A stretch of DNA of 45,783 nt, taken from positions 1 through 45,783 of the IMG/VR virus record IMGVR_UViG_3300020478_000014, one strand, 5' to 3'. The notes beneath the pieces were generated by a model that worked only from the letters and a program-made list of their open reading frames with translations, was not told where the DNA came from and ran no database searches. How positions within the stretch are numbered: position 1 is the stretch's first letter; each line of letters opens with the position of its first letter. Source of the DNA: a virus. The position numbers and the translations under genes are program-made. Positions 5,622 to 45,783 of this stretch are shown here, piece by piece.

Positions 5622-5662
5622 TTTTTATCCGATGATGTGCCAGCTGTACCATGCTTCTTTGT

Positions 5663-5670: not shown

Positions 5671-5675
5671 TGCAC

Positions 5676-5703
5676 AATAAAAAAGAGTCCCAGATGGGAC
5701 TCT
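5676..5703 (-). terminator. Rho-independent terminator after the small coiled-coil genes
   Basis: On the minus strand, a perfect 8-bp stem (AGAGTCCC / GGGACTCT) with a 4-nt ATCT loop is followed by TTTTTATT. The stem bases lie at 5696-5703 and 5684-5691. The TAG stop codon of the upstream gene (5702-5704) is partly inside the stem. It separates the main structural block from the tail-fibre gene. Confidence 0.9.
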
Positions 5704-5923: not shown

Positions 5924-6170
5924 GTTTTTCCTCCACTAATTGCTTGAGTAATGTTTTCATATCGGATATGTCTGATTTTAGATCAGAAACCTCCTTTTGT
6001 AAAGTGTCGAAATCCTCGGCTTTATTTCTCCGAGAATTATACGCTTTCATGTATTTGGCGTATTCATCAACGTTTGTGTTGATTATAGCATTAGATATGG
6101 GATCACGATACTTGTGCTCATGACCCTCAACAGGTATCCATCCTTCTTGTTTTGGATCTAGGCTTGACAT
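5913..6170 (-). CDS. Small coiled-coil protein (85 aa)
   Basis: This gene is not recognised by family. Residues 1-35 (MSSLDPKQEGWIPVEGHEHK, then YRDPISNAIINTN) look like a small folded or extended head. From about residue 36 on it is charged and helical, with a heptad-like stretch (KAEDFDTLQKEVSDLKSDIS) typical of a coiled coil. It lies 49 nt after the 2,456-aa gene and overlaps the next gene by 11 nt (stop TGA at 5913-5915). The two small coiled-coil proteins are therefore probably co-expressed and may act together, for example as a fibre chaperone or linker; the sequence does not decide this. Confidence 0.75.
   Translation of the reverse strand: MSSLDPKQEGWIPVEGHEHKYRDPISNAIINTNVDEYAKYMKAYNSRRNKAEDFDTLQKEVSDLKSDISDMKTLLKQLVEEKHAS
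5930..5934 (-). promoter_or_regulatory. Shine-Dalgarno GGAGG for the 73-aa gene
   Basis: GGAGG lies 6 nt before the ATG at 5923, within the coding region of the upstream 85-aa gene. It is the clearest ribosome binding site in the window and fixes the start despite the overlap. Confidence 0.8.
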
Positions 6171-18535: not shown

Positions 18536-18543
18536 TATTTAGG
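18536..18543 (-). promoter_or_regulatory. Possible degenerate late promoter (CCTAAATA)
   Basis: CCTAAATA matches TATAAATA at 6 of 8 positions and lies 22 nt before the start of the 497-aa gene. It overlaps the TAA stop of the upstream gene. The spacing equals that of the gp8-like promoter, but the match is weak. Confidence 0.35.
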
Positions 18544-20122
18544 TCTGATCGAAGGTGGTACCTGTTGTATCGTATGTCATTCCTGTGTTATCGAAGGTAT
18601 TATCAGTTGATCCACCTACACCAGTTACAGTGAGTGTCGCAACATCAGACTCCAATGGTGAGTTCTGTGCGGGTTCTGGAGCACCAACAGGACCAGCGAC
18701 AATACACTTAAACTTATACCCAGTCATATACGACAATGCCGTGAACTGGTAAGAAGAAGAGGTCGCACCGTTGAGTGTGGAGTATGCGAAACCACCATCA
18801 GTAGATCTGTACCACTGATAGGACTTCGGACCATTCTCAGGAATGATAGTAACAGATATAGAGAACGTAACTGATTGACCAGAGTTGACAGTAGCGTTCT
18901 GAGGTTGAGAAGAAATCTGCAACGTTGATGGAGGAGCCTGATCGCCGCCACTTGGAGGTGGAGGAGGTGGAGCAGCACCATTATTTGCAGGTTGATCTAA
19001 TACTTGTCTACTAGTAGTACCCATCATGTATGGGAACCCTGCATCTCCTGCTTCAGTTAGAGATAGGAAATAAGCATAGGTACCATTAGGGTACTCAGGG
19101 GTATAACAAAAACGTCCATTATGAAAATCTAAATCACCTAAACCTTGATTGTATTCCCAGTCCTGCATAAAGGATCCAGCAGGAGGGTTTTGTAATGTAT
19201 TACCATATGCAGGACGTCCTACTGCTTCAGTTGGTTTCAACTGATAAGAAGGTTGCATAGTTTTGATACCAGTCAGAACACCGAATGGTTCGATATATCC
19301 ATATGGTCCGTAGATAGGAAAACCATCAAATGCAACACCCAATACTTTTGAATGACCATCTGGATGTCTTAGAGCATCACCATTAAACTGACTTAGACCA
19401 TAGTAATCATTATATGTGGTCATTATTGACCCATTTTGCCAGCAAGAAAGGAAGTCAGTATCGTGATAGTGATATTGTCCTGTTTGCTCTGGATGACCAC
19501 CACATGAATCATCACCAAAATCTACGGGTGAGAGGTCATAGTGGGCATTCCAGTTAAATCCTGCAGGTGGGTTTCCACCCGTTCCTGCAGATGGGTTGAA
19601 TAGTACGACACCATTAGCAGCAACACCGATAGCCCCAAGAGGAGTTTCAGTTCTTCCGTTCCTTTGATCATAATAAGTGCAAGTCCCGTTAATATTGTAT
19701 TGGGAAGTGTTAGTAATTAATGCTAGATTTGTATCAGTTGATTTCCAAGCGTATCCATTTGTTGAAATAGTCTGAGTACCATTATAAACAAACATTTGCT
19801 TTCTGCCATCGCTGAAAACAAATAAAAGATTATCTCCTGGACGTATATCTCCTGATTCTGTGTCACCAAATAATGTATTATCTGCAACTGAAAGAGGAAT
19901 GTTTATAACATATCCTTCTTGTGACCAAGTATCAACATCAAAAGTTCTTTCAATACCAAAAGTACCACCCCTGTAATAGAAATCGTGGTCGAAATCTTGT
20001 TCAGTAACCGTGTTGGGGTTATTAGGATTAGGGAAAGTGCCATAGGTAACTGGATTTGGTAATCCGTTACCGTCAACATCTAGGATCCTAGTACTTGGAT
20101 TGTAGGAGGCAGTTGCACTCAT
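18539..20122 (-). CDS. YHYH-domain virion protein with C-terminal Ig-like domain (527 aa)
   Basis: Residues about 60-355 form a YHYH domain. The signature GQYHYH is at residues 215-220, preceded by CGGHPEQ and followed by GVAFDGFPIYGPYGY (262-276) and NGRFCYTPEYPNGTYAYF (335-352), all hallmarks of that family. Its biochemical function is unknown, though the conserved His and Tyr suggest a binding site. A proline run (385-390) links to an Ig-like domain (about 398-499) with the SYQWYRSTDGG core strand and a tyrosine-corner-like TGYKFKC. The protein ends in NTFDNTGMTYDTTGTTFDQT, a short TFDxT repeat seen at the ends of some marine phage fibre proteins. It follows the giant gene by 13 nt and lies in a run of baseplate genes, so it is probably a virion adhesin. 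Confidence 0.85.
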   Translation of the reverse strand: MSATASYNPSTRILDVDGNGLPNPVTYGTFPNPNNPNTVTEQDFDHDFYYRGGTFGIERTFDVDTWSQEGYVINIPLSVADNTLFGDTESGDIRPGDNLLFVFSDGRKQMFVYNGTQTISTNGYAWKSTDTNLALITNTSQYNINGTCTYYDQRNGRTETPLGAIGVAANGVVLFNPSAGTGGNPPAGFNWNAHYDLSPVDFGDDSCGGHPEQTGQYHYHDTDFLSCWQNGSIMTTYNDYYGLSQFNGDALRHPDGHSKVLGVAFDGFPIYGPYGYIEPFGVLTGIKTMQPSYQLKPTEAVGRPAYGNTLQNPPAGSFMQDWEYNQGLGDLDFHNGRFCYTPEYPNGTYAYFLSLTEAGDAGFPYMMGTTSRQVLDQPANNGAAPPPPPPSGGDQAPPSTLQISSQPQNATVNSGQSVTFSISVTIIPENGPKSYQWYRSTDGGFAYSTLNGATSSSYQFTALSYMTGYKFKCIVAGPVGAPEPAQNSPLESDVATLTVTGVGGSTDNTFDNTGMTYDTTGTTFDQT

Positions 20123-20132
20123 CTTTTTTGAT

Positions 20133-20140
20133 TATTTATT
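20133..20140 (-). promoter_or_regulatory. Possible late promoter (AATAAATA) overlapping the giant gene's stop
   Basis: AATAAATA matches the T4 late consensus at 7 of 8 positions and lies 10 nt upstream of the YHYH gene start. It contains the TAA stop codon of the giant gene. The short leader leaves little room for a ribosome site, so the call is tentative. Confidence 0.4.
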
Positions 20141-23100
20141 GTTGGAAGATCTGGTTAGGTACGAAGTTCTGAACTACAGTATTACCAGTTTGTACAGTCA
20201 GTACAGCGGAATTAGAGTAAACAGGAGTTGCACCAGCGTATGTGATAGCAACACGGTACTCATCACCGTCATCAGCTTGTATGGTTGCGTTTGTATCGTA
20301 TGTGGCAGCAGTTGCACCAGTTATGTTTGACCAAGTTGTGCTACCATAATCCTTCTTCTGCCACTGATAGTTGAGTCCTTCAGTTGTATTAACTGGGTCG
20401 CCATCGGTAGCGTTGAATACTGCAACAACAGTGAAGCTAGCAGTCTGAGTCTGGTTAACCGTTACGTTAGTTGGCATACGTGTGATTGCGATATGACCTT
20501 CTTCGATAACGATTGGGTTACCAGTTGCAGGATCAATACCTTCACCCGCGTAGACGTCAAATCCACCGTTAACTGGAGGTCCATCTGGAGACTCGAAGGA
20601 ATCTTCAACGGTATTTTCTACAGCAACGATTGGTGCGGAGTAAGAAATACCTGGGGAGGAAACGTCAATTCTTGCAACACCCATTAGCGCACGTATGCGT
20701 CCATCAAATCCAGAGGAAGATATAACATCAACTGCTGGACGTGAGGTGTAACCGTTACCTGGGTTGGTAATGATTGCTGCGGATAGAGTACCCTGACGGA
20801 TATTCGCAAGTGCAGCAGCGTTTCTACCCTTAACTGTTCCTGTATATTCGAATGTTACCAAGGAGTTGGAAGACTCAATCAGAGCAACAACACGTGGATC
20901 TGTCTCATCCTCACCCTCGATGAAGAGTTGGTCACCTGCCTCAATTGGAGGAACGATGGTAGCAGCAATAACGTCTGCGTCAGAACCAATGTAGGAGAAG
21001 GCAACGAATGTTGTTCCTGCACGTGGGACTTCAGCGAAGATGATACGTGAACCAACGATTTCATAACCAACGCCAGGTTCCTGAATAACACCGTTGAGTG
21101 AAACGATAATGTTGTTTTCTGGTTTGATAGTGTTAGAAGAAACACCTTCAGTCAGAGTCAAGGAGTAGAATCCACCATTTTGCTTGAGGTTGAAGGAAGA
21201 TCTTAATGAGTCAAACTCGAAGGAGATATCATCTAACTGACGTAATTTACCAATGTAATAACCGATAAATTCAGATCCAACTTCAGGTGGTTCAGCGAAC
21301 GTGATGACATCAGATGATGCTGTGTAAGCACCAGTAGCACCAGGAGGTTGTAGAATTCCGTTCACGAAGATCATCATGTGACCTGCTGGATCAGGTAGAT
21401 ATTGCTCACCGTTAGCAATCGTCAAGTTGAATGCTGTCTGTGTACCATCAAATCCACGGAAGTAACGATCAACACGTCCTATTAAATCTTGAGCAGTTGT
21501 TACAGCAGCGATCCATCCGTTGTCAGATATGATGGTCATGTTATTAGACATTGTTCCATCAACATCTTCTACCCAACAACGAGCAGTTAGACCTTGCTGT
21601 TCAATAGAGATAATCTTACCGTAAGAGTTAGATGGAGTCTCAGTGTAAGTTCCAACAGTAGCGTATACGAGTGGGAAGTTATTTAAGTTATCAAACTTAC
21701 CAATGTTATAACCACCTGTTCCGACCGTACTTCCTGGAGGAGTTGGCCAGAGTTCTTCATCAATTGCATCTCCGTATGCGTAACGACCTAGAGCAGCAAT
21801 GTATAAATCATTAACTCCATCATCAGGTCTGTAATCATATTGAGTTACATATGCAGTCCAACCTGGGTTGGCAATTGCTGTTCCTTGTAAGAGGTAAACA
21901 ATGTCACCCTTGACAAATGTTCCTGAGTATTCACTATCAACTGTTACAGAAGATAGAGATAGTTTTCTAATGTTCTCACCATGTACGAACTGGTTAATAT
22001 TGATTGGATATCCACCATCTTGAATACCTACAAGATCAAGGATTTTCTCTGTCTGTGATCCGTAAATAACGTCACCAGACTGCCAAGTACCAGTAATAGA
22101 TTCAACGTCAATAGTGATTCTACCGCCATCATTACCCTGTAGTACACCTTTCTTATTATCGTATACACTGATGTATGCTTCAGTAGCAGTTGTATCCTTG
22201 AACATCCAGTCACCGACTAGGAATTCACCCATCTTCTCGTTGACTAATAGACGATCCTCTATAACAGCAGTTACAGTAGCAGTAGCACCAGAATCAACAC
22301 CTTCAAGTATATCGTTCTGAGAAATTGTTCCTTGAACTAACTCAAGTTTTAACCATCCAAGATCGTTCTCATCTGGTTTAACCATCTGAAGAACATAACC
22401 ATTGTTGACTGTTGCACCCTGTACCTGAACCTGCTCACCATTAATGAATGTAGTGGAGGACATTGTGTTAAGACCGTAGTACTTGAAGGTCTTAATAACT
22501 TGTGCCTTGTTAATAATACTTGAGGATACTTCTGCAGATGCACCAGTTGTTGTACCAACTAGAACGTCAGCAATATTGAATCCAGCAGTGATTGGTTGAT
22601 CTATATCACGATCACCATAAGCGACAGTGTTACGATCAATTCCAGAACGACGTATTGTTACGAACTGATGGTTACCTGTGTTCGTTAAATCAAATGCAAA
22701 GTCACGATAACGAGCATCATGCTTAACTTCACGAGCAATCTCAAACCAGTCAGCAGTTGCATTAAGGACATAGTAGTAAGGTTGATCATTAGCACCCTCT
22801 AGTGATGAAGCAGATGCAAGAATATACTTTAGAACATCACCACGACGGAAGAAGTTAGATCTATTGATGCGTACGCGATTTTCTTCACGCTCATATCCAA
22901 CCTCAATAGTAGGTGTGAGTTGAACGAGAGCAGGATCAGTGTTGTAGTCAACACCCTCATCGTAATCATTCTTAAGGTTAACTGCGTCAGAAGAAGCAAC
23001 GAATGTGACTACGTTCTCAGATGGGAAAGTAGCACGTTCGATAGCAAATTCTAAACAGTTGAGTGAAGAATCAAAGTCGAATTCAGTTTTCTCTTGATCC

Positions 23101-26100
23101 CATTCCAGACGTGGGGTATAACCCTGAATCTGTGCAGGACTCCATACATCATATCCATTCCAATCAGTATCACCGAAGTTAACCATTACATCCTTGGCAA
23201 ACTCACGTACCTTATTCATAGCATAAAGTAAGCGAATCCTATCTACAGCAGGATAAGCAATGAATTGTCCTTCTCCATCGAACCATGAGGAAGCGAGTTC
23301 AAATGCACCAGCGTTACCACCTGTTCTGAGGTCATATAAACCTGCCTCAAGAACTGCCTGACAGAATGCTAGATCAGGATTATCACCAGCAGGATATTGT
23401 CCTGTAGTTGCATCCAATGCACGCTGTGTAATAGCATGATCATTATTACGCATGTACTCGGCGGTGAGCTTATTGGAGTAACATCCAGCACCCATCGTAT
23501 CTACTAATAGATCGTATAGAGTATGCGAAGCAGATATAACGTTATAGCAAGTATATTGCTGATACAACGTATTGGTGTATAGACTTGTAGGTATCTGACG
23601 AGTTACACTACTGAGATGATTTACATTTGACTTAGCTTCGTTAATAGTTTCAATAACAATATCAAATAGAGTATTAATCGTAGACTGTGATGTTGAGCAT
23701 GCTTGTACCCAGCTAGCAGCACCAGCGTTATATGGAATTGTTAGATCACGTTCTACAGAATCACCTGTGTAATGTAATGGCCAGATAGTTGGTAATGTAC
23801 GTGTAACTCCATCAAGAGATCCATTACTTGTAATAGTATCAGTAATGATACCGAACATATTGTTGATTAGAGATTCAACGTTGGAGCAAGGACCACCATT
23901 TACAGGTACCTCAGTACGTGTAGCAGTAATACCACCAGTCTCAATAGATTCCTTAACAATGTCTATGAGAGTGATTGCTGCAGCAACCTCTGTTGGGCAT
24001 GCTGGTTGTGTGGTATCAGTAGTGATTGTTGTATCTCTGTACTGAAGTATTCCGTGAGTACCGAATGCAGCAGTAGGTTGATTTCTAATAATATCAGGGA
24101 TAATGCTAATAGCCTCATCCATAATACCCAAACTCCACTGCTCCTCAAAGTAATTGTTGAGGTGAGTGTTATTGGCATATTCTTCTGCCTGATCCCAAAT
24201 CTCAGCGTTTCCACCGAATGCTATGTGGTAAGCAACACCTCTCAATACACGTTCGATGTCATCTACACAATTATGATTACCACCAGGAATTGTGTATAGT
24301 TTATTGATTGCGTTGAACTTAGCACTTACAAACTTATGAGTGTAGTTACCACCAGTAATTACAGCACCAGCAGTTGCATTGGTGAATGTATGATCATGTA
24401 CACCACCAGCGATTAGTACAGATCTTGTAATACCATCAGTAGTAGCAGAAACAAATGTATGAACTGTCTCATTAGTTGATGGAATATTATCCAATACTTG
24501 TACTTCAAATGTGTATGAAGTTACATTGGTTAGTCTCAACCATCTTCCACTGGAAGGATCAGTTGCACGTGGATAAGAATGATTACCACCACCCTGTGTG
24601 CAAGTGAATGTTAAAGAGTTGTCAGCAAACTTGATATATTCACCATTAACCATTCCGTGTGTTGCAAGTACACAGTTAGCAGCAGCAGAAACAAAGTTAT
24701 GAGCAGTTGTATCTGTAATTGCACCCTGTCCACCATTAACGTTAACTGTAATTGTTGTATTAGTTACAGCAGTAATAGGAATAGAAGTATTGTGAACGTA
24801 ATCAGATCCGCCAGGTGTAGAAGCACCACTGGAACGTGGATATGTCTTCTGAGTTGTATTACCATCACCGTTGAAATCACAAGTGAAGGTTAATGAATCT
24901 TGAGTAAGTTGAATCTCATCCCATACGGTTAGACCGTGATCACCTAAGGTAAGTACTAAATCACCTGTTGTTGGATCATAAGTTGCATCGGTAGGAGTCA
25001 TCCTTCTACCAGCAGTTACCTTCATGATACCTGTGGATGGATTGTAATCAGCGTTAGTTGCAGTGAACTTATTGTGTGTTCCTACCCACTTATGAGCATG
25101 CTGATTAGCAGGAAGTGAATCGAAACCAACGTTAATGGTAACTGTTCCATCCTGTAGTTTGATACCATCTGCGGTAGCAGACGCGAAATTATGAGTTGTC
25201 TTATTCTGTGAAATACCAACGTTAATATCGAAGGTATCCTGCTTAACACCATGAACAGGTAACCATCTGTTAGCAAATGGATCACCAGCACGAGGATATG
25301 CATGAAGTGAACCGAAGTCGTCCTTCTCACATCTGAATGTTAATGACTCATTAGCAACCTGAACGTAATCATGTGCTACTTCAAATGTTGCCTTGGTTAT
25401 TGAATTAGCGTTAGCAGACTGGAATGTATGAGCAGTAGTGTTTGTTGAACCAGTACCCTGAAGTCCTTCTGGTAATACATTAACCTTAAAGGTATCAGCA
25501 GTAATATCAGAAACCTCTAGGTATGTTGCAGATGCAGGGTCACCGTGTGTAATTCCACCAGAAGTGGCACTTACAAATGTATGAGCATAGTTACCAATTG
25601 TAAGTTCACTAGCCATTACCTGAACCTTGAAGACAGATCCAGAAGCATCGTAAATACGTAACCACTGACCGCTAACTGGGTCATCAGAACGAGGATAAGA
25701 ATTACCAGGAGAACTTACACCTACGTTAACTGTGATTGTACCAGCACCATTATCAGCAGCAGTAATTGCTAATGTCTGTCCAGATGAAGGATCAGTTGCA
25801 CGTGGATATGAGTGCTGAGTAGCATGACCATCAAGATCACAAGTGAATGTGACTGCATTATCAGCAATCTGAACTGTATTGGAAGTTGTTAAGTTATGGT
25901 TGATTCCTATGTTTAGAACCAAAAGACCAGTTGCAGGATCATATGTTGTTCCTGCTACAGCAGTGAATGGTCCACCAGAGTTTGCAGTGATAGCGTTAGA
26001 AGCACCACTTACGAAGGTATGAGCACCAGCACCATATGTACAACTGAATGTTAGTGAATTATCAGCGATCTTAACGAAGTCACCATTTACAAGTCCATGA

Positions 26101-29100
26101 GCACCAGTAGTAGTGATGGATAGTTCACCAGTTGTTGCATCAAATGTAGTACCAGAACCAGCAGTTAAAGTTGTCTGTGAAGGTCTTGGATATGTGTAGT
26201 TACCACCACCCTGTGCACAACTGAAGGTAAGTGCATTGTCATCAATCTTAACAAAACTACCATTCTTCAAACCATGTCCAGCAGATGTAATGGTCATTAG
26301 ACCAGTATTAGGATCATATGCTGCAGTGGATGGAGTTAGAGTAGGTGTAGTTACGAAAGTATGTCCATAATCACCACCAGTAACCAATGCCTTAGTCTGC
26401 TTCTTAAGACCACCAGCAGTAGCAGATCTGAACTGGTGAGCATAGTTACCACCAGAGAGAACTGAATTTTCTAGAGCAGATATGAATGTATGTGGTTGTG
26501 TCTGACTCTGAGGAATAACGTTGTTAACCTGTAGTTGGATAGTAGTGTTAGTAACACCAACAATAGGAACAGAAGTATCGAAGAATGGATCCTTCTTAAT
26601 GGAGATACCATCTGCAGTAGCAGACTTCCATACATGACTAGTAACGTTTGTAGAAGGAGTTTCATCAAGTACTTCTACAGTAAACTTAGCAGAGTTAATA
26701 ACAGTAACCTTCAACCATCTTCCAGAAACAGGATCAGTAGGTCTTGGATAGGTATGATCGGTTGCTTGAGCATCCTTATCACAAGCAAATGTCAAGGAGT
26801 TATTAGCAATCTTGATCCAATCTCCAGTAGTTAATCCATGGTTAGAGGTTGTTTGGATTGTTAGTAATCCAGTTACAGGACTGTAAGTAGTGCCAGTTGT
26901 AGCAGTAAGAGTTCCCTTAATATCAGATCTTGGATATGCAGTGCCAGGAGAACTTACACCAACATTAACTGTAATAGTATTAGCACCCTGATTTGCATTT
27001 GTAATTGCAATGAACTGATTGTATACAGGGTCAGTAGCACGAGGATATGGATGATCGCTACCATAGTTGTCCAGATCACACTGGAATGTTATGGAGTTCT
27101 GAGCAATCTTAACAGTGTTGGAAGTTGTTAATGTATGTCCAGCACCAATTGTCAATACTAAAGTACCATCTGAAGGAGTATACTCAGCATCAGTAACAGT
27201 CAAAGCATTGCGTTGCATTACTGTTACACCATTAGCAGTTGCACTAACGAATGTATGTGCATCAAGGTTACTAATAGGAGTACCAGGTGACTGGTTAACG
27301 TTAACAGTAATTGTTCCAGCAGCGGCATCAACAGCAGTAATTGCTATGTTGTTGTTATAAACATAGTCCTCTCCATTACCTGTGTTAGCACCAGTAGCAC
27401 GAGGATATGTCTTAGTGGTAAGGTTACCATCTAATGTACATGTGAATGATAATGAATCAGGAGCAATCTGAATTTGCTCACCAACATATAATCCATGATC
27501 AGCACCGACTGTTAATACTAAATCACCACTTGCGTTATCATAAGTTGCGTTAGAAACAGTGAACTGTTCTCCTGGAGCAACGGTAATACCACCAGAGGTT
27601 GCAGATACAAAGTTATGATCACCAGCACCGTATGTGCAACTAAAGGTTATAGCACCCTCAGCAAGTTTAACTTTCTGACCTGACTGTAATCCGTGGTTAG
27701 CACCGATAGTCAACTCCATAATACCTGTCTGAGGATTATGGCTTGCATCTGTAGGTGTGAATGTCTGTATTGGTGTACTACCAATATTAACCTTAAAGGT
27801 ATCTTCAGTTACATCATATACATCAGTCCACTTATCATAGAATGGATCAGTTGTACGAGGATAAGTATGATCTGTTGCATAGTCATCCATCTCACATCTG
27901 AATGTTAGTGAGTCTTGGACAAACTTAACCTTGTCTCCATTAACAAATCCATGCTTCGCAGAAGTAATAACCATAACTCCAGAAGCAGGAGTATAAGAAG
28001 CATCGCTTACTGAATAAGTTGTTTCTCCAGTTAGAGCATTAACAAAGTCATGATCATATGCACCACCAGCAATTACACCATTTGCAAGTGCACTCTGGAA
28101 CTGGTGAGGATATTGGTTAGCAGGATCAGAATCAACACCAACGTTAATTGTAATTTGTGTAGCAGTTACAGCATCAACGTTAATTGTGGTGTTATAGAAT
28201 GGGTCAGTTGTACGTGGATAAGAATTATCTGTACCATATCCATCCTTATTACATCTGAATGTTAATGAATTTGGAGCAAGTCTAATTCCATCATTCTGCT
28301 TAATCTTATGAGATCCAATGGTCAATACCATTACACCCGTAACCTCATCATAAGAAGCATTAGATGCAGTGTAGTAAGAAAGTGGTGTCTTACCTACATT
28401 AACTGTAATAGTCTTAGCGGTCGAATGGATGATATCCATTGGTTGACCATATGCTCTGTCAATCTTCTGTGTAATTCCATCTGTAGTAGCAGATACGAAT
28501 GTATGTGTTGTGGTATTTGTAGATGGAATATCAGTTAATACCTGAACATCAAATGTATTTGCAGTTACATTAAAGATTGGTAGATATGTGTCGTATGCAG
28601 GGTCGGTTGTACGAGGATAACTATGGTTACCACCACCTTGAGTACAAGTAAAGGTTAATGAGTTAGCACCAAACTTAATCCAGTCACCCTCATCCATACC
28701 GTGACTTCCAACAGTCACAGTCATTACACCAGTATTAGGATCATAATCTGCATCAGTAGCAGTATGACTAATAGTGCTTGTTCTTGGATAAGTGTGTGTA
28801 GTAGCATAGTCATCCATTGCACACTTGAACTGCAATGAATTACTTGCAAGCATTACTGTCTCACCTACTCTTCTTACACCATCAGTATGAGCACGAACGA
28901 ATGTATGAGCAGTAGTATTAGTAGGAGATGTACCACGTAATATCTGTACCTCAAATGAATCAGTAGATACATTAGAGATCTCCATCCAAGTACCACTAGC
29001 AGGATCAGTTGTTCTTGGATAAGTATGTTCTGTCTGATCACTATCCTGAGCACATGTGAATACTAAAGAGTTATCAGCGATCTTAACTTTATCACCATTA

Positions 29101-32100
29101 GCAAATCCATGATCTACAATGGTTAGTTTCATTACACCCGAAGATGGGTTGTAAGTAGCATCAGTTACGGTGTGGTCAGAATGTCCACGAAGATGATGTG
29201 GTCCAACAGTAGTAATGACCATTTCACCTGTAGTTGCATCATAATCAGCATGAGCAACATCGTACTGAACTTTAGGTGATTCACCAATAACTACTTCAAA
29301 TGTATTAGTAGTAGTTGAAGTAATAGTTAACCACTTGTTAGCAACAGGATCAGTAGGTCTTGGATAGGTATGCTTGGTAGCATTACCATCCTTATCACAT
29401 GTGAATGTTAATGAGTTAGGTTCGAACCTCATCTGCTGACCAGGTTGTAAACCATGGTTAGCAAGAGTCATCTTCATAATACCAGTTACAGCATTGTAAC
29501 TAGCAGAAGTAACAGTATGCTGAGTAGAAGGTTTGAATCCATGACCAGCAACAGTCAATGTCATTTCACCTGTTGTAGGTGTATAAGCAGCATTAGTTGC
29601 AGTAAAGTTCTCTGAACCTACAGAAGCAACAGTAATTGCTTTATCGAAGAATGGATCAGGTGCACCATCACCAGCCTTTGCTCTTGGATAGTAGTGAGTA
29701 GATGTATAAGCATCCTTAGCACACTTAAATCCAAGTGAATTAGCAGCAAGTTTGATGCTGGTACCTTGTCTTAGTCCATGGTTACCAATGTTAAGTACCA
29801 TGGTTCCATCATTATGGTTGTAATCAGCATAGCTGACATCGTAATCAACATGCTCTGTACGACCAACATTAATTGTAATATTACCATCTTGCTTCTCAAG
29901 ACCATTTGTAGCAGCGGAAACAAATGTATGAGTAGATGTGTTAGGTGAAGGTCCAATATTAACTTGGAACTGATTTGTAGATACATTAGATACAACTAAC
30001 CACTCATCTGAGAAAGGATCAGTTGGTCTTGGATATGCATGTCTTGTAGCATGTAAATCAGCAGCACAAGTGAATACTAAAGATCCATCTGAAATTCTTA
30101 CCCTATTACCATTTGAGAATCCATGTCCAGGAATTGTAATTGCTAAATCACCAGTACCAGGATTGTAAGATGCACTAGTTGGAGTCCACTTACTTGCACC
30201 AACTTCCTTAATTGGGATAGCGGTATTTGCTACTGGATCTGTGGCACGTGGATAAGTATGCGTCGTCGCATTATTATCCATATTACAGGTGAATGTTAAT
30301 GAATCATCTGCAAGTTTAATTGTTGTTCCTTCTGTAAGATTATGTAATCCAACATTAAGTTTAAGATCACCAGTTACAGGATCATATGTTGCAGCACTTG
30401 GTGTATAAGCAACAGTTCCAGTAGTACCAACATTTACAGTTACAGTACCGTCTTGCTTCTTAATTCCATCAGCAACACAAGAAACAAATGTATGTTGATA
30501 TAAAGGATTAAACTGAACTGCACCAGTTAATGCAGACATAAATGTGTGAGTAGTTGTGTTGGAAGATATACCAACATCAACAGTAATTGTAGTAGTACCA
30601 ACTGCTGTAACAGGTACATGCTGTTCAAATGCCTTATCTCTCTTCTGCTTAATTCCGTCAGTAGTACCACTCACAAATGTATGAGTAGTTACGTTCGTAG
30701 AAGGAATAGTTGTAAGAACTTGAACTGTGAATGTCTGAGAAGTAACGGCGGTAACTTCTATCCACTTACCACTTACAGGGTCAGTAGATCTTGGATAAGA
30801 ATGGTTTCCACCACCTTGTGTGCAAGTGAATGTTACTGCACCATCATCAAACATTACCCAATCACCGACCTTGATACCATGTGTGGTACCTGTGTCAATA
30901 ACCATAAGACCTGTATCAGGTGCATATGATGTACCAGCACCAGCAGTATGTGTATCAATTGTTGGTCTTGGATATGCATGTGCTTGACCAGCATTCTGTG
31001 TACATTCGAAGGTTATTCCACCTTCCTTAATCATAACCTTGGCATCTACAGAAAGGTCATGATCACCGATAGTCAATACCATCAATCCTGTAGTTGGATC
31101 GTATGTGGCATTGGTAGGTGTGTACTCAATTACAGGAGCAACATGTACATCTACTGTAAATTCATCATCCCATGCTTGTGTTACTGGTAACCACTCATCA
31201 CTAGCATAGTCTGTATATCTTGGATACGTATGTTGTGATTGATGATTGTCAGCATCACATGTAAATGTAAGAGCGTCGTCCTCAATTAAGATAGCATCAT
31301 TTGCTTTCTCGAATGATGCTCTCTGCAGACCATTAGCACTAGCACTTTGGAATGTATGAACTGTGGTATTTGTAGAAGGTGCATTAGCAAGTACTTGTAC
31401 ATCAAATGTATCATCAGAAACATTGAATACCTTCAAGTACTTCGCAGAACCAGGATCACCATGAGTAATACCATTAGAAGCACCACTTACAAAGTTATGT
31501 GTCGTCTCGTTAGTAGAAGGAACAATATCAAGAACTTGAACTTCAAATGTTGTTGAAGATACATTACGTATTTGTAACCATCTACCGCTAACTGGGTCAG
31601 TAGAGCGAGGATAAGTATGCTGTGTTGAACCACCATCCTTCTGACAAGTGAATGTTAATGCATTATCGTCAAACTTGATCCACTCGCCATTAGCAAGGTT
31701 ATGTGCACTGCTAGTAGTGATACTTAGAACACCTGTTGTTGGGTTGTAAGTAGTACCAGTGTCAGCAGTATGTTGACTTACTTGTGGTCTTGGATAGGTA
31801 TGGTTGCCACCACCTTGTGTACAAGTAAATGTAAGTGAATTATCAGCAATCTTGACAAAATCACCATTGTCAAATCCGTGACCAACGGAGGTGATAGTCA
31901 TAATACCCGTTGTTGGGTTGTAGTCAGCATCGGTTGCTGTCTTAGTACCAGCAGCGACAAATTTATGGATATAATCACCACCAGTTACAATGGCACCTTC
32001 GGTTGCTCTGACAAAGTTATGAGCAGTTGTGTCAGTAATAGCACCCTGTCCACCGTTAACATTAACAGTGATAGTTGTCTGTGAAGTAGCGGTAATTTCT

Positions 32101-35100
32101 ACAGCAGTATCATAAACATAGTCCTCTCCATTACCTGTCGATGCACCTGATGCACGAGGATATGCTTTCTCTGTCTGGTTATTGTTACCGTTGTAATCAC
32201 AAGTGAATACTAAAGATTCAGTCTTAATCTTAATGTGTGTACCTACTTCCAATGCATGATGACCAATGGTCAATTCCATGTCACCTGAAGTTGGATTGTA
32301 AGTAGCAGCAGTAGGAGTGAATGATACTAATGGTGACTTACCAACATTAACCTCAAAAGTATTTGCAGTTACATTGTTAATGGTTAACCAACGCTTACTT
32401 ACTGGGTCAGTGGATCTAGGATAAGTCTTCTGAACTGTATTATCATCCATACCACAAGTCATGGTTAAGGAGTTATCAGAGAATAAAATCCTGTCTCCAT
32501 TATAGAAACCATGATCCTGAACTGTAATAACCATAATTCCAGACTTAGGATCATACGTAGCACCAGTTATAAGGTGTGCAGTAGATGGTCTGAATCCATG
32601 ATTATCAATAGCAAGAGTCATTATTCCTGACTCAGCATCATACTTAGTACCAGCACCAGCAGTATAGGAATCAGTTCCAACTGCAGTAATTGCTAGTCTT
32701 TCGTTATAAGAAGGATCAGTTTCACGAGGATAACTGTGCTCTGTACCATGATTATCTTGATCACAAGTAAAGACTAATGAATGAGCATCAATAGAAATAT
32801 GATCATTTGTAGTGAAATTATGTGTTGGGAATTTCAGTACAAGATCACCACTAGTAGCATTATATGATGCATCAGATGGAGTGAACTGTGCTGTAGGAGT
32901 TAGATCATTATCACGTGTATAACGATATACTGCTTCCTCAGCAACAAAACGTGAATTGTTGAGAATTAATTGATAAGCATCAGCAGACCTGTTGGCATTA
33001 ATACCACCAGTCAATATAGCCTGCTCCATCGTGGGATTATCACGAGTACGAGTGCTATATGGATAGTAATCTAAATCAGCATAGTATTTCTGGAACTTGC
33101 CGTGTATATTCTGACCACGAGCAATTACAGGAATATTACGCATAACCTTAACTGCCAAATCTCTAGCCTCATTGAAGGCATAAATTGGCATTTGGTTAGT
33201 TAAATGATAAGTTGATGCACTTCTATAGAAATCAGCAGCATCCCAAACATGACTATTACCACCGTACTTCATATCGAAGACCATAGCACGTAGGTAATCT
33301 GCTATATCATCGACACATGATCTGTCACCATTTCTGATGTGAAGTTGTGGATATTGAATATTTGCACGATATACTGCTTCCTCAGCAAGGAAACGTATAT
33401 TACGATCAATTAGATTTGCAGCATCAAGATACCTTGATACAATTGGGTTCTGATCATAACTCTCTAGAGAAGGATCATCTTCTTCACCAACACCGTATCC
33501 ATAGATGTTATCTCTACCAAAAGCGTTTCTTATAGCAAGAGTTGTCATATCTCTTGCCAACTTCATTGTATAGATTGAAGCATCAGCTTCGTTAGTGATA
33601 TGTTTTAGTGAATTATTTTCAGGTTCAATATAGTAATTTGCAGCATCCCAGACCTTACTGTTACCACCTAAACGCATGTCATGGACAACAGCAGTAAGGA
33701 CGTCAACTACGTCATCTACACAATCTTCTGGACCTTGACCTTCTGGATAAGCATGATCTTGGAACTTAGCAATATCATTCATTGTATGAACTGCTTCCCA
33801 AGCAATCTGCTTCTTATTCTTCTCTATAAGATCAGCAGCATCCAATATACGGTTACCGTCTGAACGGTTTGGATCATATCCCTGAGGATCAGGTGGGTTA
33901 GTAACACCATCCCAATCTGCATCAGTATTGTGTACAGTGAATGGAGCAAGGTTTGTATACTGACAAATATAGTAATCGTCAATATTTACAGAACCCTGAT
34001 TTGTATCAGGAGCAAATCCATTCTGAACTAATAGATGGTTAATTGCTTTAGTTGACAAGAACTTAGTGAACTCAATGGCATCCAACATAGGAAGAAGTTC
34101 TTCATCCACGTGGAGAATGTCTTGATCAGCATCAAGATAATTGTCAATTACATCATTAACAGCAGCATTACCACCAGTAATCAAATCGGCAATAATTGCA
34201 GGGATAATGAAGTCTTTAATATCACGCTGACATTTAACAGTATCAGGGATAGTTAATTTATCGTAAGTAGTACCACCTTCACCGCCAACTGTAACAGTCC
34301 ACTTAGCTTCGATATATCCAACAACTTCCTCAGCAATCAAAGAACGGTTCTGCCATAGAGCATCACCACCATCACGGTAACGAGGACCAGTTGGTCCTAG
34401 GATAGTCAGAACTCCATCCATCAATGCTGTAATTTCATTCTGTACAGTAGCTGAAGCAGGACTTGAGAAGTTATTAGGAATTCTAAGTCTGGTTGTATAT
34501 TCGTTTGTTAAGTCAGTACTTGTAGTTGTAATGACGAAGTTAATAAGTTCTGCTGCTTTCTGCCATGTATAGAGAGTTTGTAGCAGTTCTTTATTAACGA
34601 AGTCTAATCCACCAGTTGCAGTTAAGTATCCTTTAGCAGCAACAGTTGTATAGTAGTTACCACCATACTTAAGGTCTTTAATTAGAGCACCAATGATATA
34701 CTCCTCAGTATCCCTTAAGCAGAAATAAGTACCAAGTGTAGATCCAGTTGCAGCATCATCTCCACGGATAACGAAGTCTGGGAACTTCGCTTTCATCATT
34801 CCTACAGCAACCTCAGAGATCCAAGTCTCATTTTGTTCAATGGAATCAGCACAACGACGATGCTCGTCACGACCAAGATCGACATCTTCTATAACTACAC
34901 GCTTATCATTATAGTTAACCTTCTTAGCAGTAGCAGAAGATATGGTTTGACCAGTGAACTTAGCATATGTTTCTGTAGTAGAACATATAAATGGAGTCTC
35001 ACCAGTTAATCCAAGAACAATCTCATCCTTCGTATAATCAGGAGCAACAGGAGGTGTAAATGCAGCAGTGTAATCTGCAACACCCTTCTTGACAACAATG

Positions 35101-38100
35101 TTGTCCATGTTACCAACGAATCCATTACTACCAGCTAGATCAGCACCAACATAACATGGAGCATAGGTGAAGTCATCACTGTTAGCAACGTTTGAACCTG
35201 CTTGTGTGCCATTGACATATGCCTGCATGACACCTTCATTTCTAATTACTGCAACATGATACCAAGTATTAGCTGTAGTAAATACGTTACCAGAAAGAAT
35301 AAGAGTAGTACTTCCATTATATACGCGAAGGGTTTGATCCTGCATGTAGATCCGCAAACCTGAGCCAGCAGTACGACGAAGATCAAATAAATGTTGTGTA
35401 CCAACTATACCAGTTGGATTAATCCATGCCTCAAATGTGAAGTTTCCTGTTGCAAAATCAAAATCATAAGAATCAACTGCCTTCAAATAAGAAGTTGATG
35501 GGAACTTAAGTGATTTTGTAGAATTTGCTAATTCAGGTTTAGTAATAACGACACTCTGTGTAACACCGTTAGTATTAACAAGAGTAGAATTAGTAATGTA
35601 CTCACGATCTTGAAGAGTACCAGTAATACCAGCACTATCAGCAAACAACCAACCAAGACCAGAGTTGACACCCTCTAGAGTACAAGTAGCACCAGATGTA
35701 ACACCTTTAAGGGAATTACCCATCTTGAATAATCCACTGGACTTATCCTTATAGGCAAGTTTAATAACACGAATGGTCTCTCCATCACGGAATGAACCAT
35801 CATCAATATTTGCTAATGCATTGATATTGGTTAGGTTACCATTGGTAAATGCAGTGGTAACAATACCTGTAATAGTATCAATTGTAGACTGTACGTCAGC
35901 ACAGTTCGTTGCACTCTGATTATTACCAGATGCATAGTTGGCATCATAGTAATTAGCAGGAGCAACACCACCAGAATAAGTGGTAGGATCATTCAGGTTA
36001 TATCCTACTGTGTTGAGATCTTTTACATACAGTAAATTATTGATTGCTTTCTTAGCAAGATCTTTAGCATGTCCAATAGATGTTAATCCTTGTGGAGCAT
36101 GAAGACCTGATATTGCATTACCAGAAGCATCAAAGTAAGAGCGAACAAATTCGACACTCTTAAGATTACCACCACTCTTAACATCCTCTTCTAATGCATC
36201 AACGAATAATGCAAGGTCACGACGACATGTGGTCTCAACAGAGTTATATGCTGGTTCAGCAGATTGTATATCTCCTATGTTCTGATTCTGTAGAAGAGTT
36301 TCGGTAACTGTATCTCTTAAAGTTGTTAGAGCAGACTGTACATCAGCACAAGCACCAACATCAGTATTACTAATGGTACTACCAGTACCACCGTAAGTAG
36401 CAAGTCCTTCTGTTAGAGTTGTATCGTTGTATAAGGTGTAAGTTACACTATCAACCACCTGTGTACCAGAGAACTGGTTGGTGACTGCAGAAAGCATGTA
36501 TTCAACAGCCTTAGTATAATTCCAGACTGTCTCAGTTATCTGAGCATTAATATACTGAAGAGATGCACCACTAAAGTATTCTTCAATAAACTTACGTACA
36601 TACTTGTTACCAGTAGCCATCATATCGTATGCAATTGCATCGACTAGATAAGCAGTGTCACGCTTACACTTATCTGCATCGGGAACTACAAGAGATGGGA
36701 ACTGTAGCAACATCTGCTCGTAGGACTTAGCAACGATATAGTCCTTATTCTTAATGATTAATCTGTATGCATCACGGAAACGTGAACGTCCATCTGTCTG
36801 GGACATTCCTGGATAATAAAAATCAGGATGATCTACAGCAATCTGTGCTTCTGCAAAGTCAACAATCTCATCCTTAGCTCTCTCTATACTACGTGAACCG
36901 TCTCTATGTCTGTTAGCAGCAGTTCCATATGCAGCACCGAGTATTGGGTTATTATAGTTAACCTTGATATTACGTAGATTATCACCAGCACCAAATACAC
37001 CACCAGTTAGATCAGTATAGGTAACTTCCGAAGATCTAACTTCTTCAAAGTCTAGGAAGTTAGCATTGATACGAGCATCACTATCAAGGAGTTCAGTTGG
37101 TGTAATAGTAGATTTAGAAATATTATCTAACAGAACATTAGGATAAGACTGACTAACCAAACGTTCAAATAATAGACCATAGAAAGTAGATCCAGTTGTC
37201 AATATCTGTGTATCAACAACATCACCTGTTACTGGGTCTCTATATGGTGCTAGGACTGTAACTCTTGCAGCAATATTTGAACGAGCAGAATAAATGATAT
37301 CCTGAAGTCTGATATCAAATACTCCAGTCTCATACTTAGCAGTACCAGAAGTCTTAGATAGAACTATGTCATTACCAGCACTACCATCTACTTCAATATT
37401 GATTGCATTAATTTGAGCAGTAGGATTGTTACGGCTACGATTTGTACAGATGACAGTTTCATCAAATTCGTAGATAGTATCCTGCGAAATAATTTCTTGT
37501 GATCCAATTCTTGCACTGAATCCTAAAGCAGTAACGTTAATTACTTCATTATTATTGAATACAGGAGATCCACCAGTATTAGAAAGATCTACAACATCAA
37601 TAGTCTGAGAACCAGAAGCAACAACTGTTGCATAGGTATCTGACTCAGCTCCCTGTACTTGATAACCAATCTCAGGATATATACCACCAACATCAGTTAG
37701 ATTAAGTCTAGTGATTTGTAAGAATTGAACTGTTGCATCACGATATACAACCTTAGAAGGTGCCTTTGGTGCTTCTTTAAATACGATGTCAGCACCGACA
37801 ATATCATAAGATTCAATAGGTGACTGAATAACACCATTAAGAGTAATCAATAACTGGTCATTTTTAACGATGGTTTGTTCCCCTTCAATTGTGATTGGGA
37901 ATGCTTTCTTAATACCATCAAAGTCACCAGCAATATCATCTAACTTCTTAACAATAGAAGTTAAAATTTCCTCAGAGTTAGTTAAACGCTTTTTACGGAA
38001 GAGAACTTCAGTATTGTTAAAGTCTGTATATATTGGTTGTGCAGCAGCAAATGAGGTAACTTCATTGAAGTTAGAGTACTCATTAATATTGACCTGCTTA

Positions 38101-41100
38101 ATAAACTCAGTACCAACCTTACGTCCAGATACGTCCTTACCACCAGTCAGTTGTAACTGACCAAACATATTGAAACCAGCAGGGTGGTTATTCTCAAGAA
38201 TTTGTTCCTTCCACTGGTTGATAGGAATTTGAGACTTGATAACGTAAGAGAAGTTTTGATAGAAGAAGGAGTCCTGTATCTTCTGTACAATCTCAGAAGG
38301 TTTACCAACGTCATCAATAAACTTACCTGGTGTCTCAGTTAGAGAACCAATATTCAATACACCCTTAGCAAGAGATATATTATCGATAACACCAGATGCA
38401 CGTGAAACTGTACCGTTTACTCGGAATCCTTTTACGAAGTTTCCATTAGCATTAACTAGTTTTAAAATCTTAGGTCCAATTTGCCAACCATCGTTAATTG
38501 ATACTTCAGCAAATACTGTAGCAAGTTCTTCGCTATCACCCATATAAACTTGCTCACCTTCTAGGAATCTAGAAGTTTCAACAACTGCGGTTGCTTGACC
38601 ACCAAATACCTCAGTTAGAAGAACTTGACGACCTGAACCCTGTGTCAAGAAGGTAATGTAGTTACCAGACTCAGCATCAGCAGGTGTTAAAGCAAAACGT
38701 AATTGATCAGATTCAAGAGAATTCAATTCACCAGCAATAGCATAGTAAATCTGATTCTCAACCAAACTGGTTAAACCAGCAGAACTTGGTTTTGGTAGTT
38801 CACCTTCTGTGCTACCAATATCATCTGAACGGAATGTAACTTCTGCACCTTGTGTTATACCATGAGGGAAGTTGAACTGTAAGTAGTTCAAATCAAGGTT
38901 AACAACGTAGTTAAATTCTGACTTAAGTGTTACTTCTGGTTGTGAACTATATCCTGCACCTGGGTTCTTAATCTGTATTTCATTAAGACGATTGTTCTTA
39001 ACTATAGCAATTGCTTCAGCACCAAATCCGCCACCACCAGTAATGATTACACTTGGTGCAGAAGTATATCCAGCACCAGGATCGGTAATTTTGATCTGTG
39101 AAAGTATTGAAGTATTGAATAGTTGTAGGTTAATTGGGAATGTAATTTCTGGTTTCAGAGTATAGTCATGTGAGTATCCATAACCAAACTCATTGTTCTT
39201 CAACTTCTTAATCTTACCGATATTCTTACCAGTTAAGAATACAGAAGCACCAGATCCCTCATCAGGGATGATTACAGTTAATTCTGCACCAGAACCAGTC
39301 AACTGAGGACCGAGAATTCCTTGGATAGAATCAACATCAATTGAAGCAATAGTATATCCTTTACCAGGATCAGTAATAACAACGTTAGTGATAGTGCCAG
39401 AGCCAATCTCTTCATCAACCGCGACGGTGATGCGACACAAACCACCTTCACCATCACCGTCGATGGTTACTTGGTCGTATGTACCAATTGCATATTCAGA
39501 TCCACCAGATGTAATGTCAATACGTTCTATCTGACGGAAAGAAGCAATATCTGAAATGATAGGTAACTTCTTATAGAAACCACCAGCAGATATTAACTTA
39601 ATTGAACTAATTGGACCAATTGCTCTTGTAGATGTAGTTGAATACTTAGAGTATGCAACATCTTGATCATCTTCACCAACATTAGCATTCGTAAATTCTG
39701 GTTCGAATGATAGTGGGAATTGGAAGTTGGTATCGTCAATGACCTTAGATACGGCATATGTGCCGTCAAATGGAGTCTTCTTAACATCAACGAATGACTG
39801 TGCTCCAACAGGAGAATTACTATCAACCCTAGATGGGTCAAAGTAGTAAGAAATATTTGTTACCTGACCATCAATCTTAAATTTAACGAATGGTGCATTA
39901 GTACCATCGAATACACCAGGTGTGCCAGATCTTTCAATATTATTGAATGAATATTCGAGTTTAAACTCGTTATCTTGAGAGAATGATAGGTAGTACCCTA
40001 AGTTGGTACTATCGCTCATATCAAAGATATAATTATGATTTCTTGTAAGCATCAAAGTAGGATGCTTAGTGTAGATATCTACATTAGCAATACTACCCTG
40101 AGTAAATGCTGGTTCAGCAGATGGAACAGCACGAGTAGTAAAGATGAAATCTCTAGAAGTGAATACTTCCTTAATAAAGAAGGAACCATTAAATTCATTA
40201 GTAGAGAATCCCTCAGTAAATAGGATATTTCCTTGTTCGTAATTGTGACGTGAATTAGCGACACAATATACATCCTTAGTTCTTGACTGACCACTAGTCT
40301 TCATTAAGATAGTCTTATCAAGAATTGCTTGAATAGTTACCCTCTTAATTGAATTGATATCATTAATCTGTAATACTGTAGTTTGTCCTTCTTTAGGATT
40401 AACAGTAACACTTCCACCAAGACTTAGACTGTCATTTACAATAAAGTTTGAATCGTGATAAACTTCTTCTACACGAATTGAATAATATGCCTCTCCAGCC
40501 TCATAATTCTTAAAGGTAGCAAAATCACTGAGAGGATCATAAGTTAATTGCCATTCCCATGTTGCAGTACCATCTACAGCAGTCCCAGTAGTATGGGAAG
40601 GTGGGGTCTTAGATGTTCGGCCAGCAACAGTACACTTGTATTTATTTCTACCATAATAAACAATATCACCTACATCATAGATGATCAATTGTTCCCAAAG
40701 AGGTTCAGCAGGTACAGGGAATGCAGTGTTAGCAAGATCTAATTCAAGAGGTAGAGATGAGACAATATCAAAATCCCATGAAACACCACCATCAGACTGG
40801 TTGCCAGCTAGATGAGAAGGTCTACCAGTTACAGGACCAGAAGTTCCATTAGTTGTTGCAGTATAGTGATTACCATTAGCATATACCTCATCTCCTGCTT
40901 GGTATACTGTTAGTGGTTTCCATTCCTCCATTGCACGTTGAGCAGTGAAGGTTAGATTACTAATTACATTACCAGCATTATCTGATGCTAAATCTGTTTG
41001 GAATTCCTCATTAGTACTAAAGGTAGCACCAGCAGGATATATCTTACCAATCCTATAGGTAGTACCAAGACCAGGAGTTTCAATCTCACCAACAGGTACC

Positions 41101-44100
41101 TCTACAATAGTTCCATAACGTTGAACTACTCCAGAATCATTATACTGTTGCAGGATTTGACCCTTAGTGAATTGAACATCCTGATTAAATATGAGTTCTT
41201 GGACACTATCAATCTTACTATAGGCAGCATCCTTGATATAGTATTTTGGAGTTACAATAGGAGTAATCTTTAACTTCTTACCACCTGGAGTAGGTACAGT
41301 AGATGTCTTAGATCCATAAGTGAAGTAATCATTATCAAAGGTAAATGTGCCTGGTATTAACTGACTGCTAACATCAGCATAGTCAAGAATTTGTAAACCA
41401 CCTGGACCAATTAACCATGGTGTCATTGGTGGTTGAGAGAAGGAATTATAAGTCCAACCAGTTTCCTCAACATATGCCATCTGAGTATGCTCAGAAAGAC
41501 CTGTTAGAGTATAGGTTCCACGCTTAAGGTGTTCTCTATCTGTCTTAGTAATAACAAGACTGCTATTTAATGTACGTACTGGTACTTCAGCATCAGGTGC
41601 AGTAAATGAAGATCCAGTGTATTGTGCATCATCATCGATAACGAAATCATCAACGTTACCAAGTAAGGATGTATAAGCAGTAGGAGTTACCAATCCACCA
41701 ACATATACGTCATCAATTGGTATATTAGTTGTTGTGTTCCATTGACCAATTTGTGTACCATTACTGAATACAGTGTAATTAAATGTACCTAAAGTAGGTT
41801 CATCTTTAACTAATGCAATGTGTACCCAAGCATCAGCAGCAAAGTTAGTCCAAATGGTTGCACTAGCGGTCTCCATGACCTCTGTACCAGCAGAAACCAA
41901 TTTAACCTTTCCATAATCACCACTGGTCTGATCACCATCAACATATAGTCTTAACTCATTAGCAGGGTTAGAACCATCATTAGGAACAGTAAAGAAGAAA
42001 GTTGGTTGACTATTAGCACTAGAATGGATACCAGTCTCAATACGGAACCATGCTTGTAATGTCCACTTATTAGTGTTTAGATTGATATCTATAATTCTGA
42101 AATGGTTCTCTGCTTGGAACTTAAGTGAATCACTACCAAACTTCTTAATTGCACTATCGATAATTGCATTTGTTGCATTACTGAGTTGTGCAGTACCATT
42201 ATTCTGCTTAGTCTGATCAAATACGTTAATTACAGTCTGGATATTAAATGTGATATCAGCATATCCATATCCACCAAGTTGTGAGTCAGTAACGGTAAGA
42301 ACTTCATTTGCAAGATAATTCAAACCAGTTTTATTCATGCTAACACTTACTGCACCATTAGCAGCAACATCAACATCAATAGTAGCACCAGTACCAGATC
42401 CACCAGCAGCAGATATATTCGAATAAACAATGGCATCTAGAGCACCAACATCAAATGTTAGATTAGCACCACCAAAGTTTCCTAACTGAGCATCAGTGAT
42501 AGTAAATGTATTACCTACCTGATATTCTTGACCTTTATTATTAACAGTAACGTTACATGCACCAACACCATTGACTACAACATCAAACGTAGCATATTCT
42601 CCAGTTCCGTTATTTGTAGTAGAGACATTGGTATAAGTATATCCTTGAATAGAAGCAACACTCATATCGAGATTAGGTGCACCCTGTCCTCCAAGAGTTG
42701 CGTCAGTAATTGTAATCGTATCACTTAAAGCAAATCCTTGACCACGATTTGTTGGGGTTAAAGTCTGGAATGCTCCAAGATTATCAATTACAATATCAAA
42801 TACTGCAGCACTACCACTACCATTTGTAGACCAAGTATTGACACCACTATATGTAATTCCTTGTGTAGCAGTAATATCGAATGTGAAGTCAGCAGCACCA
42901 CGATTTCCTATATCAGCATCAGCAATAGTGATTGTCTCATTGACTGCAAATCCACGACCAGGTGTTGCTGTAACTAACGAAGTGATAGCACCAGCAGAAT
43001 CAACAGTGATATTGAATGTGCCACCTGTACCTGCGCCAGTAGTGTTGCTTGGGGAGACCCCAGAATAAAGAGCACCACCAGATACAGAAGCAACATTGCA
43101 AGTAATATTTGCAGCACCGTTATTACCAACGTTAGCATCGAGAATAGTGATGGTATCACCAACAACATATCCGCTGCCTGGTTGGGTGATGTTCAAGAAG
43201 GCAACAGAACCATCAGTGTTAATGGTAACTTGTAATGTTAATCCTGTACCCTGATTATTTGTACTTGTTGGTACGTTACTGTATAGAGGTGGAGCTTTAA
43301 GAGTAGCAACATCAAATGTTATGTTTGCTGCACCACTATTTCCAAGAAGAGAATCAGGAATCTGTAATTGATCGTTTTCTGCATATCCCAAACCTGCTAC
43401 AGAAGCAACAGCAAGGGTTGCAGTACCATTTGCACTAATAGTGACATCGAATGTAGCACCAGAACCACTACCACTTATGGTGGTTGCAGCGATGCTAGTA
43501 TATGTATTCGGTGCAGTTATAGTAGCAACATCACAGGTAAGTGCAGGAGCACCGTTATTACCTAAGTTAGAGTCAGCAATAGTAATCGTGTCATCTATTG
43601 CATATGCAAGACCACCTGCCACAACTGTAATTGCTGTTGCAGCACCAGTTCCATCAATAGTAACGTCAACAGTTAATGCATTATTACCGTTACCAGAGTT
43701 AGTGGTCGGAATATTGTTATATTGGAATCCACCTAAACCTACAACATCAAAGGTAACGTTAGGAGCACCAGAGTTACCAATAGAAGCATCAGATATCTCT
43801 AAAGTCTCAGTGTTATAGTATCCAATACCACCATTACCAATGACTATAGAAACATCACCAGTAGATGATACGTTTACATCGAATGTGGAGTTAGCACCAG
43901 TCGAAGCAACGTCAGTACTAGTAGCAGTAACACCTGTATAAGAGAATCCACCGATAGATGCGACGTCAAAAGTAACGTTTGCAGCACCACCGCCACCTAA
44001 TTGTGAGTCAGCAATAGTTATTGTCTCACCGATAGCGAAAGATATACCTCCACCTGTTACTGTTATGTTTGCAGTACCGTTTGCAGTAACGTCAACATCA

Positions 44101-45783: not shown

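Follow-up and report, generated by a model that had tools for sequence, protein, structure and literature searches.

A probable gp7-type baseplate wedge protein of giant size carries phycobiliprotein-like modules in a marine T4-like cyanophage

Results

In a stretch of viral DNA of 45,783 bp (the window, an entire IMG/VR contig) we identified a gene whose product, its arm extension included, is very probably the "wedge initiator" of a marine T4-like cyanophage (Kyanoviridae), a baseplate wedge protein of the gp7 type. The full protein is predicted to have about 10,400 residues, which would make it the longest member of its family that we found and perhaps the longest in such viruses. Its family is already known, and the lead worth following is its module content rather than its record size. 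The giant carries repeated modules that appear, from sequence comparison, to be related to phycobiliproteins. This content was overlooked in the preliminary description of this DNA, and stands out along with the predicted length.

Extent of the giant gene

The frame on the minus strand, positions 20136–45782, has 8,548 open codons followed by a stop, zero N and no start of its own in the visible part. The preliminary description had proposed one intact gene still open at the window edge, and the uninterrupted frame agrees with this. The contig, which the window covers completely, stops within the gene and so truncates it. The same description had dismissed the TTG at 45663–45665 as a start, and we also rejected this codon, which is just the first start-like one of the visible part. 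The homologous frame of 20 IMG/VR relatives extends a further 1,851–1,889 residues upstream, where it begins with an ATG behind a stop. For the relatives nearest the window (67–82% identity) the predicted start lies 1,861–1,883 aa ahead of window residue 1. Because the missing part comprises this number of residues in the closest relatives, we predict a full protein of ~10,410–10,430 aa. The visible part has a mass of 918.5 kDa and the missing part, taken from the N-terminus of relative G001, of ~203 kDa, which brings the giant to ~1.1 MDa. The first ~380 window residues, earlier labelled as a propeller, gave zero matches in a Pfam search.

Table 1. Positions of the giant gene, its modules and the neighbouring genes in the window (aa, residues counted from window residue 1).
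Feature	Position	Strand	Evidence or remark
Giant gene, probable gp7-type baseplate wedge protein, visible part	20136..45782	-	8,548 codons + stop; 5' end missing
ConA-like/LamG lectin domain 1	41721..42110	-	Pfam PF13385 E 3.9e-7, above cut-off
CBM_5_12-like carbohydrate-binding module, one of two copies	40839..40925	-	Pfam PF02839 E 8.6e-8, two stretches
Last gp7 core motif IKSQIPINQWKEQILENNHPAGF, aa 2513-2541	38160..38246	-	Aligned to T4 gp7 and phiM12 gp7
Phycobiliprotein-like module 1, aa 3001-3102, CKRD	36477..36782	-	PF00502 E 4.3e-6
Phycobiliprotein-like module 2, aa 3145-3249, CRRD	36036..36350	-	
ConA-like/LamG lectin domain 2	35091..35474	-	Pfam PF13385 E 3.3e-20
Phycobiliprotein-like module 3, aa 3642-3752, CLRD	34527..34859	-	
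Phycobiliprotein-like module 4, aa 3801-3915, CQRD	34038..34382	-	
Phycobiliprotein-like module 5, aa 3978-4086, CVDD	33525..33851	-	
Phycobiliprotein-like module 6, aa 4117-4216, CVDD	33135..33434	-	
Beta-repeat arm, aa 4296-7162 (~2,870 aa)	24297..32897	-	36 matches to ~78-aa unit; absent from G004/G005
Phycobiliprotein-like module 7, truncated, aa 7158-7234, CVDD	24081..24311	-	
Phycobiliprotein-like module 8, degenerate, motif Cys missing, aa 7441-7535	23178..23462	-	
Neighbouring virion structural protein, YHYH domain + Ig-like end	18539..20122	-	PHROG 25852 E 6e-253, PF14240 E 5e-37
gp9/gp10-N-like baseplate wedge / tail-fibre connector	17020..18513	-	PHROG 677 E 4e-138, PF07880 E 8e-9
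Baseplate-wedge-like protein	15164..17020	-	PHROG 22827 and 708
gp8 baseplate wedge	13595..15130	-	PF09215 E 4e-17, PHROG 438 E 5e-217
2,456-aa baseplate wedge / tail fibre connector homologue	6220..13590	-	PHROG 358; syntenic S-SZBM1_203, S-WAM1 P090810_090
Structural protein, cut by contig end	3..5621	-	PHROG 697

The gene is genuine

The whole visible frame is under purifying selection, with dN/dS values against relatives G001, G014 and G012 of 0.18–0.20 in the core, 0.27 in the arm and 0.23 at the C-terminus. Because of this selection, and because complete homologous genes of 6,619–9,914 aa occur in isolates and independent contigs, a chance open frame is excluded.

Assembly could also have created the long frame, by fusing two genomes or by multiplying a repeat inside the gene. 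The source is a metagenomic contig, relatives' contigs break within the giant gene in two other metagenomes, and the extra length over the closest complete relatives, G004 and G005 (7,523 aa), is a single block (window residues 4296–7162) of repeats that these two relatives lack, although they are collinear with the window on either side of it (67–69%). Against this, the entry junction of the block is spanned by the contigs of three relatives (G012, G013 and G014, 76% DNA identity), among which G014 has a single uninterrupted frame of 6,926 codons through to the stop, and G012 is collinear with the window from residue 5535 to the stop, spanning the exit. The gene has no exact DNA repeats of at least 40 nt, and over long stretches its repeat copies do not exceed ~70% identity, so the assembler did not inflate it. 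Complete genes on single contigs, from ATG to stop, bear the same repeats in G019 (9,242 aa), G024 (9,560 aa) and G031 (9,914 aa). A chimera was excluded by the independent junction-crossing contigs and the complete relatives; an assembly origin of any kind is exceedingly improbable, and the giant gene is real.

The two metagenomes mentioned are 3300012953 and 3300020411, in which the contigs of close relatives end inside the giant gene on each side. This suggests that short-read assemblies are broken by giant modular genes, which are then undercounted.

Family and virion evidence

The giant is homologous to proteins of the marine T4-like cyanophages P-RSM6, S-WAM1, S-SZBM1, P-TIM40 and P-SSM4, where they are annotated as gp7, "baseplate wedge initiator" or "virion structural protein". 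Parts of the window match positions 2212–3724 and 5342–6134 of the PHROG 701 model (6,136 positions), and the N-terminus of a relative matches positions 4–1837; the giant is thereby predicted to match this family over most of the model. The PHROGs category given for the baseplate families PHROG 701, 18802 and 4406 is "head and packaging", which looks wrong.

Lengths of gp7-type proteins, computed from annotations and frames, begin with phiM12 (1,007 aa), T4 (1,032 aa), S-CAM1 (3,032 aa) and S-PM2 (3,048 aa), followed by S-CAM9 (3,884 aa), S-SCSM1 (4,120 aa) and P-HM2 (4,454 aa). They rise through syn9 (6,076 aa), S-ShM2 (6,198 aa), S-CAM22 (6,273 aa), ACG-2014b (6,422 aa), S-SZBM1 (6,619 aa), S-WAM1 (6,737 aa), ACG-2014d (6,818 aa) and S-SSM4 (6,932 aa) to P-SSM4 (7,312 aa), P-TIM40 (7,351 aa) and P-RSM6 (8,573 aa). 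Large size is thus a known trait of marine T4-like cyanophages, with the window protein, at its predicted length, at the top of the range. The gene had been thought exceptional for a phage virion protein, a view that we do not retain, since genes of 18–26 kb are common at the same place in these phages.

The P-RSM6 protein (CPXG_00128) is homologous to the window giant at both ends (52–56% in the collinear core) and shares with it the gene order, the phycobiliprotein-like modules (seven in P-RSM6) and the repeat type (20 units in P-RSM6). It differs in being ~1,850 aa shorter than the predicted protein, in its shorter repeat arm and in the lack of window residues ~385–1188. The relatives G031, G024 and G019 are giants too, whose repeat arms comprise 34, 31 and 29 units, respectively; they are somewhat shorter than the window giant, and G019 has fewer phycobiliprotein-like modules (4–5).

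The homologue S-SZBM1_208 (724 kDa) was detected in virions by mass spectrometry, with 71 peptides and 13.5% coverage (PMC9146016). The earlier assignment to the virion and tail is supported. Detection in virions, which the preliminary description had proposed as a check, comes from this homologue rather than from the window virus itself. The extreme length, the modular build and the low peptide coverage of S-SZBM1_208 would suit a polyprotein that is cleaved post-translationally into several virion proteins. However, no protease site was identified, every relative examined has a single frame, and we know of no tail polyprotein of this kind; we consider cleavage improbable.

gp7 core and gene neighbourhood

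We scanned T4 and phiM12 gp7 with a profile of nine complete giants, using reversed controls, which gave E values of at least 0.018. The N-terminal core motif (DFY.SKGT....FLFK.LFGE) is not covered by the window, and relatives served for its test: residues ~675–800 of G005 align to T4 gp7 730–760 (E 1.8e-5), and the match to phiM12 gp7 covers residues 65–174 (E 2.5e-14). The C-terminal core motif (IKS.IPI..WK....NHPAGF) aligns to T4 gp7 865–892 (E ~1e-4) and to phiM12 gp7 943–987 (E 8.5e-6). These alignments are short (28–46 columns), the phiM12 N-core excepted. A further N-terminal motif, PDFI..ED..FV.FLFEYY, resembles, on visual inspection, the beginning of the T4 core. A PDB sequence search with the N-terminal profile gave no match, and an AF2 model of the N-core was unusable (mean pLDDT 33).

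T4 gp7 and the gp7 of Sinorhizobium phage phiM12 have the core motifs in the same order as the giant and lie between gp6 and gp8, but they are about ten times shorter, and the genomes of these two phages have zero phycobiliprotein-like modules. Insertions of about 3,600 residues separate the two core regions of the giant, and about 6,000 residues follow the last one. The sequence thus shows gp7 core motifs set thousands of residues apart by inserted modules and, after them, a C-terminal extension made up of lectin-like and phycobiliprotein-like modules together with tandem beta-repeats.

The gene order gp25, gp6, giant, structural protein, gp9/10-like, wedge-like, gp8 and connector is found in P-RSM6, S-WAM1, S-SZBM1 and P-TIM40. 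The window matches it from the giant onwards, the gp6 side being visible in the relatives only. A YHYH domain is common to the neighbouring structural protein (18539–20122, minus strand) and, in relatives, to the N-terminal part of the giant (PF14240, upstream of the visible part), and the virion genes of this cluster appear to have swapped modules.

An adhesin or fibre might instead occupy the gp7 position, with the gp7-like motifs as relics and the gp7 job done by another protein. The giant is indeed mostly fibre-like, its core motifs are short, and tail fibres are among the proteins with related modules. Such a replacement nonetheless seems improbable to us: the conserved core motifs occur in the order seen in T4 and phiM12 gp7, strong conservation marks the N-terminal ~1,100 residues, and the order gp6-X-gp8 is retained. 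By homology, the giant likely sits in the baseplate wedge.

The beta-repeat arm

An AF2 model of three repeat units was all-beta (pLDDT 80.5). In a structure search the repeat-arm model resembled cyanophage baseplate-initiator and tail-fibre proteins, and the arm also matches PHROG tail-fibre models. A PDB fold search with the repeat model had no match at E ≤0.001; weak similarities to tandem-beta and E1 FCCH-like structures were all that it found. The number of units varies among relatives (0, 2–3, 5, 15, 20, 21, 29, 31, 34 and 36). A separate region of ~800 aa (42219–44630, minus strand, residues ~385–1188) consists of short AAD.LRGG-type and ~100-aa glycine-rich repeats; it is present in the window and in G004 and G005 and is missing from P-RSM6, S-WAM1, S-SZBM1, G007 and G010.

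Long tail fibres are reported absent in S-SZBM1, S-WAM1, P-RSM6 and P-TIM40 (PMC9146016), which are the isolates nearest the window giant. The most economical reading is that the wedge protein itself bears the arm and the surface-binding domains, from which we infer receptor binding and reach. If T4 stoichiometry applies, each of the six wedges would hold one copy. The extension would project as a segmented arm bearing surface-binding domains, could take over the work of the T4 long tail fibres, and might have its reach set by changes in the number of beta-repeats. A single chain would give each arm covalent anchoring and a fixed stoichiometry, which would select against splitting of the gene.

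Phycobiliprotein-like modules

The ~105-aa helical module is present in 2–9 copies in each giant examined (fewer where the contig ends in the gene). The Pfam family PF00502 exceeds its cut-off only when neighbouring window copies are summed (25.9 versus 22.2 bits); the best single window module, at 21.8 bits, stays below it, and 19 of 59 modules match the family weakly. When a profile of the 59 modules was compared with all PDB chains, phycobiliproteins made up 42 of the first 43 distinct sequences, with phycocyanin alpha 2vjr as the best match (E 3.1e-6). Reversed modules gave two matches, neither a phycobiliprotein, with E values of at least 0.21. A single unselected window module had phycocyanin alpha (CpcA) as its top PDB match (E 0.1).

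The modules share with phycobiliproteins (PF00502: phycocyanin, phycoerythrin and allophycocyanin) the signature N..I....A....P...PG and C-x-R-D...GG, including the bilin-attachment cysteine and the following aspartate. Their C-x-R-D aligns on the KCARD of phycocyanin alpha, whose cysteine holds the bilin. In the modules of giants, this cysteine (50/54) and the aspartate three residues on (51/54) are among the best-kept columns, and the arginine is kept in 30 of 54. The profile match spans only residues 39–104 of phycocyanin alpha, the N-terminal part being unmatched. We name the modules phycobiliprotein-like, not phycobiliproteins, because they have ~105 aa and the match starts at residue 39, which falls short of the complete globin-type subunit of ~160 aa; they are, moreover, arranged in tandem inside a virion protein.

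By tblastn, the module region has relatives in 335 phage records, every one of them from a cyanophage. A module search found none in T4, phiM12, S-CAM9 or Pelagibacter phage HTVC008M, and none was confirmed in cellular genome contigs by a single-protein scan, which detects close relatives only. We found no earlier report of such modules in phage proteins in the literature searched, which comprised few subscription journals.

Modules in tail fibres and the bilin pathway

The large "short tail fiber" proteins of the S-PM2-like cyanophages S-PM2, S-CAM1, S-RSM4, ACG-2014e, S-RIM44 and S-H9-2 contain the same modules as the giant, but are encoded by different genes at a different place in the genome. 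In all of these phages except S-H9-2, the bilin-lyase-like gene cpeT and the module-bearing gene share a strand, the latter lying 0.4–1.5 kb further downstream, although these five phages share ancestry and are not independent cases. The S-H9-2 gene in the CpeT position was rejected as CpeT; it is a 2OG-Fe(II) oxygenase. The motif of the tail-fibre modules is mostly KCxRD[IL]G, with the cysteine in 30/30 aligned copies.

The role of pcyA and pebS in cyanophages has been called "a mystery" and that of cpeT "unresolved" (PMC3037559). The host light-harvesting fold with its pigment-attachment residues, repeated in phage tail proteins, is a candidate acceptor for the products of the cyanophage bilin genes. 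The tandem modules of baseplate and tail-fibre proteins might receive phage- or host-made bilins via phage CpeT-type lyases, the virion being the missing acceptor. We put this forward tentatively and consider it rather unlikely; if true, the virion would be the acceptor for the pathway of pebS, pcyA, ho1 and cpeT, Prochlorococcus phages included, which could account for the pigment-making genes of these viruses. CpeT co-occurs with the modules in 12 of 15 records and is found in none of three without them; this is weak evidence of a link because two of the three module-free records are not cyanophages.

It is likelier that the modules are pigment-free helical spacers of host origin, with cysteine and aspartate kept for folding, and we hold this to be probable. 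The N-terminal part of phycobiliproteins is missing from the modules, half of the phycobiliprotein fold goes unmatched, the arginine of C-x-R-D is often lost in the giants, the last module has no motif cysteine, and Prochlorococcus is described as having no phycobilisomes (PMC2984593). The conservation of the cysteine and aspartate columns, and a tail-fibre motif that is nearly the antenna signature, speak against the spacer reading. Even as pigment-free spacers, the modules would represent an antenna domain captured as virion building material.

In the S-PM2 record NC_006820 (160000–176000), tRNA features are placed inside the long open fibre frame. ARAGORN placed the tRNAs 3–5 kb into this locus, upstream of the fibre gene, and the tRNA coordinates of the record look displaced.
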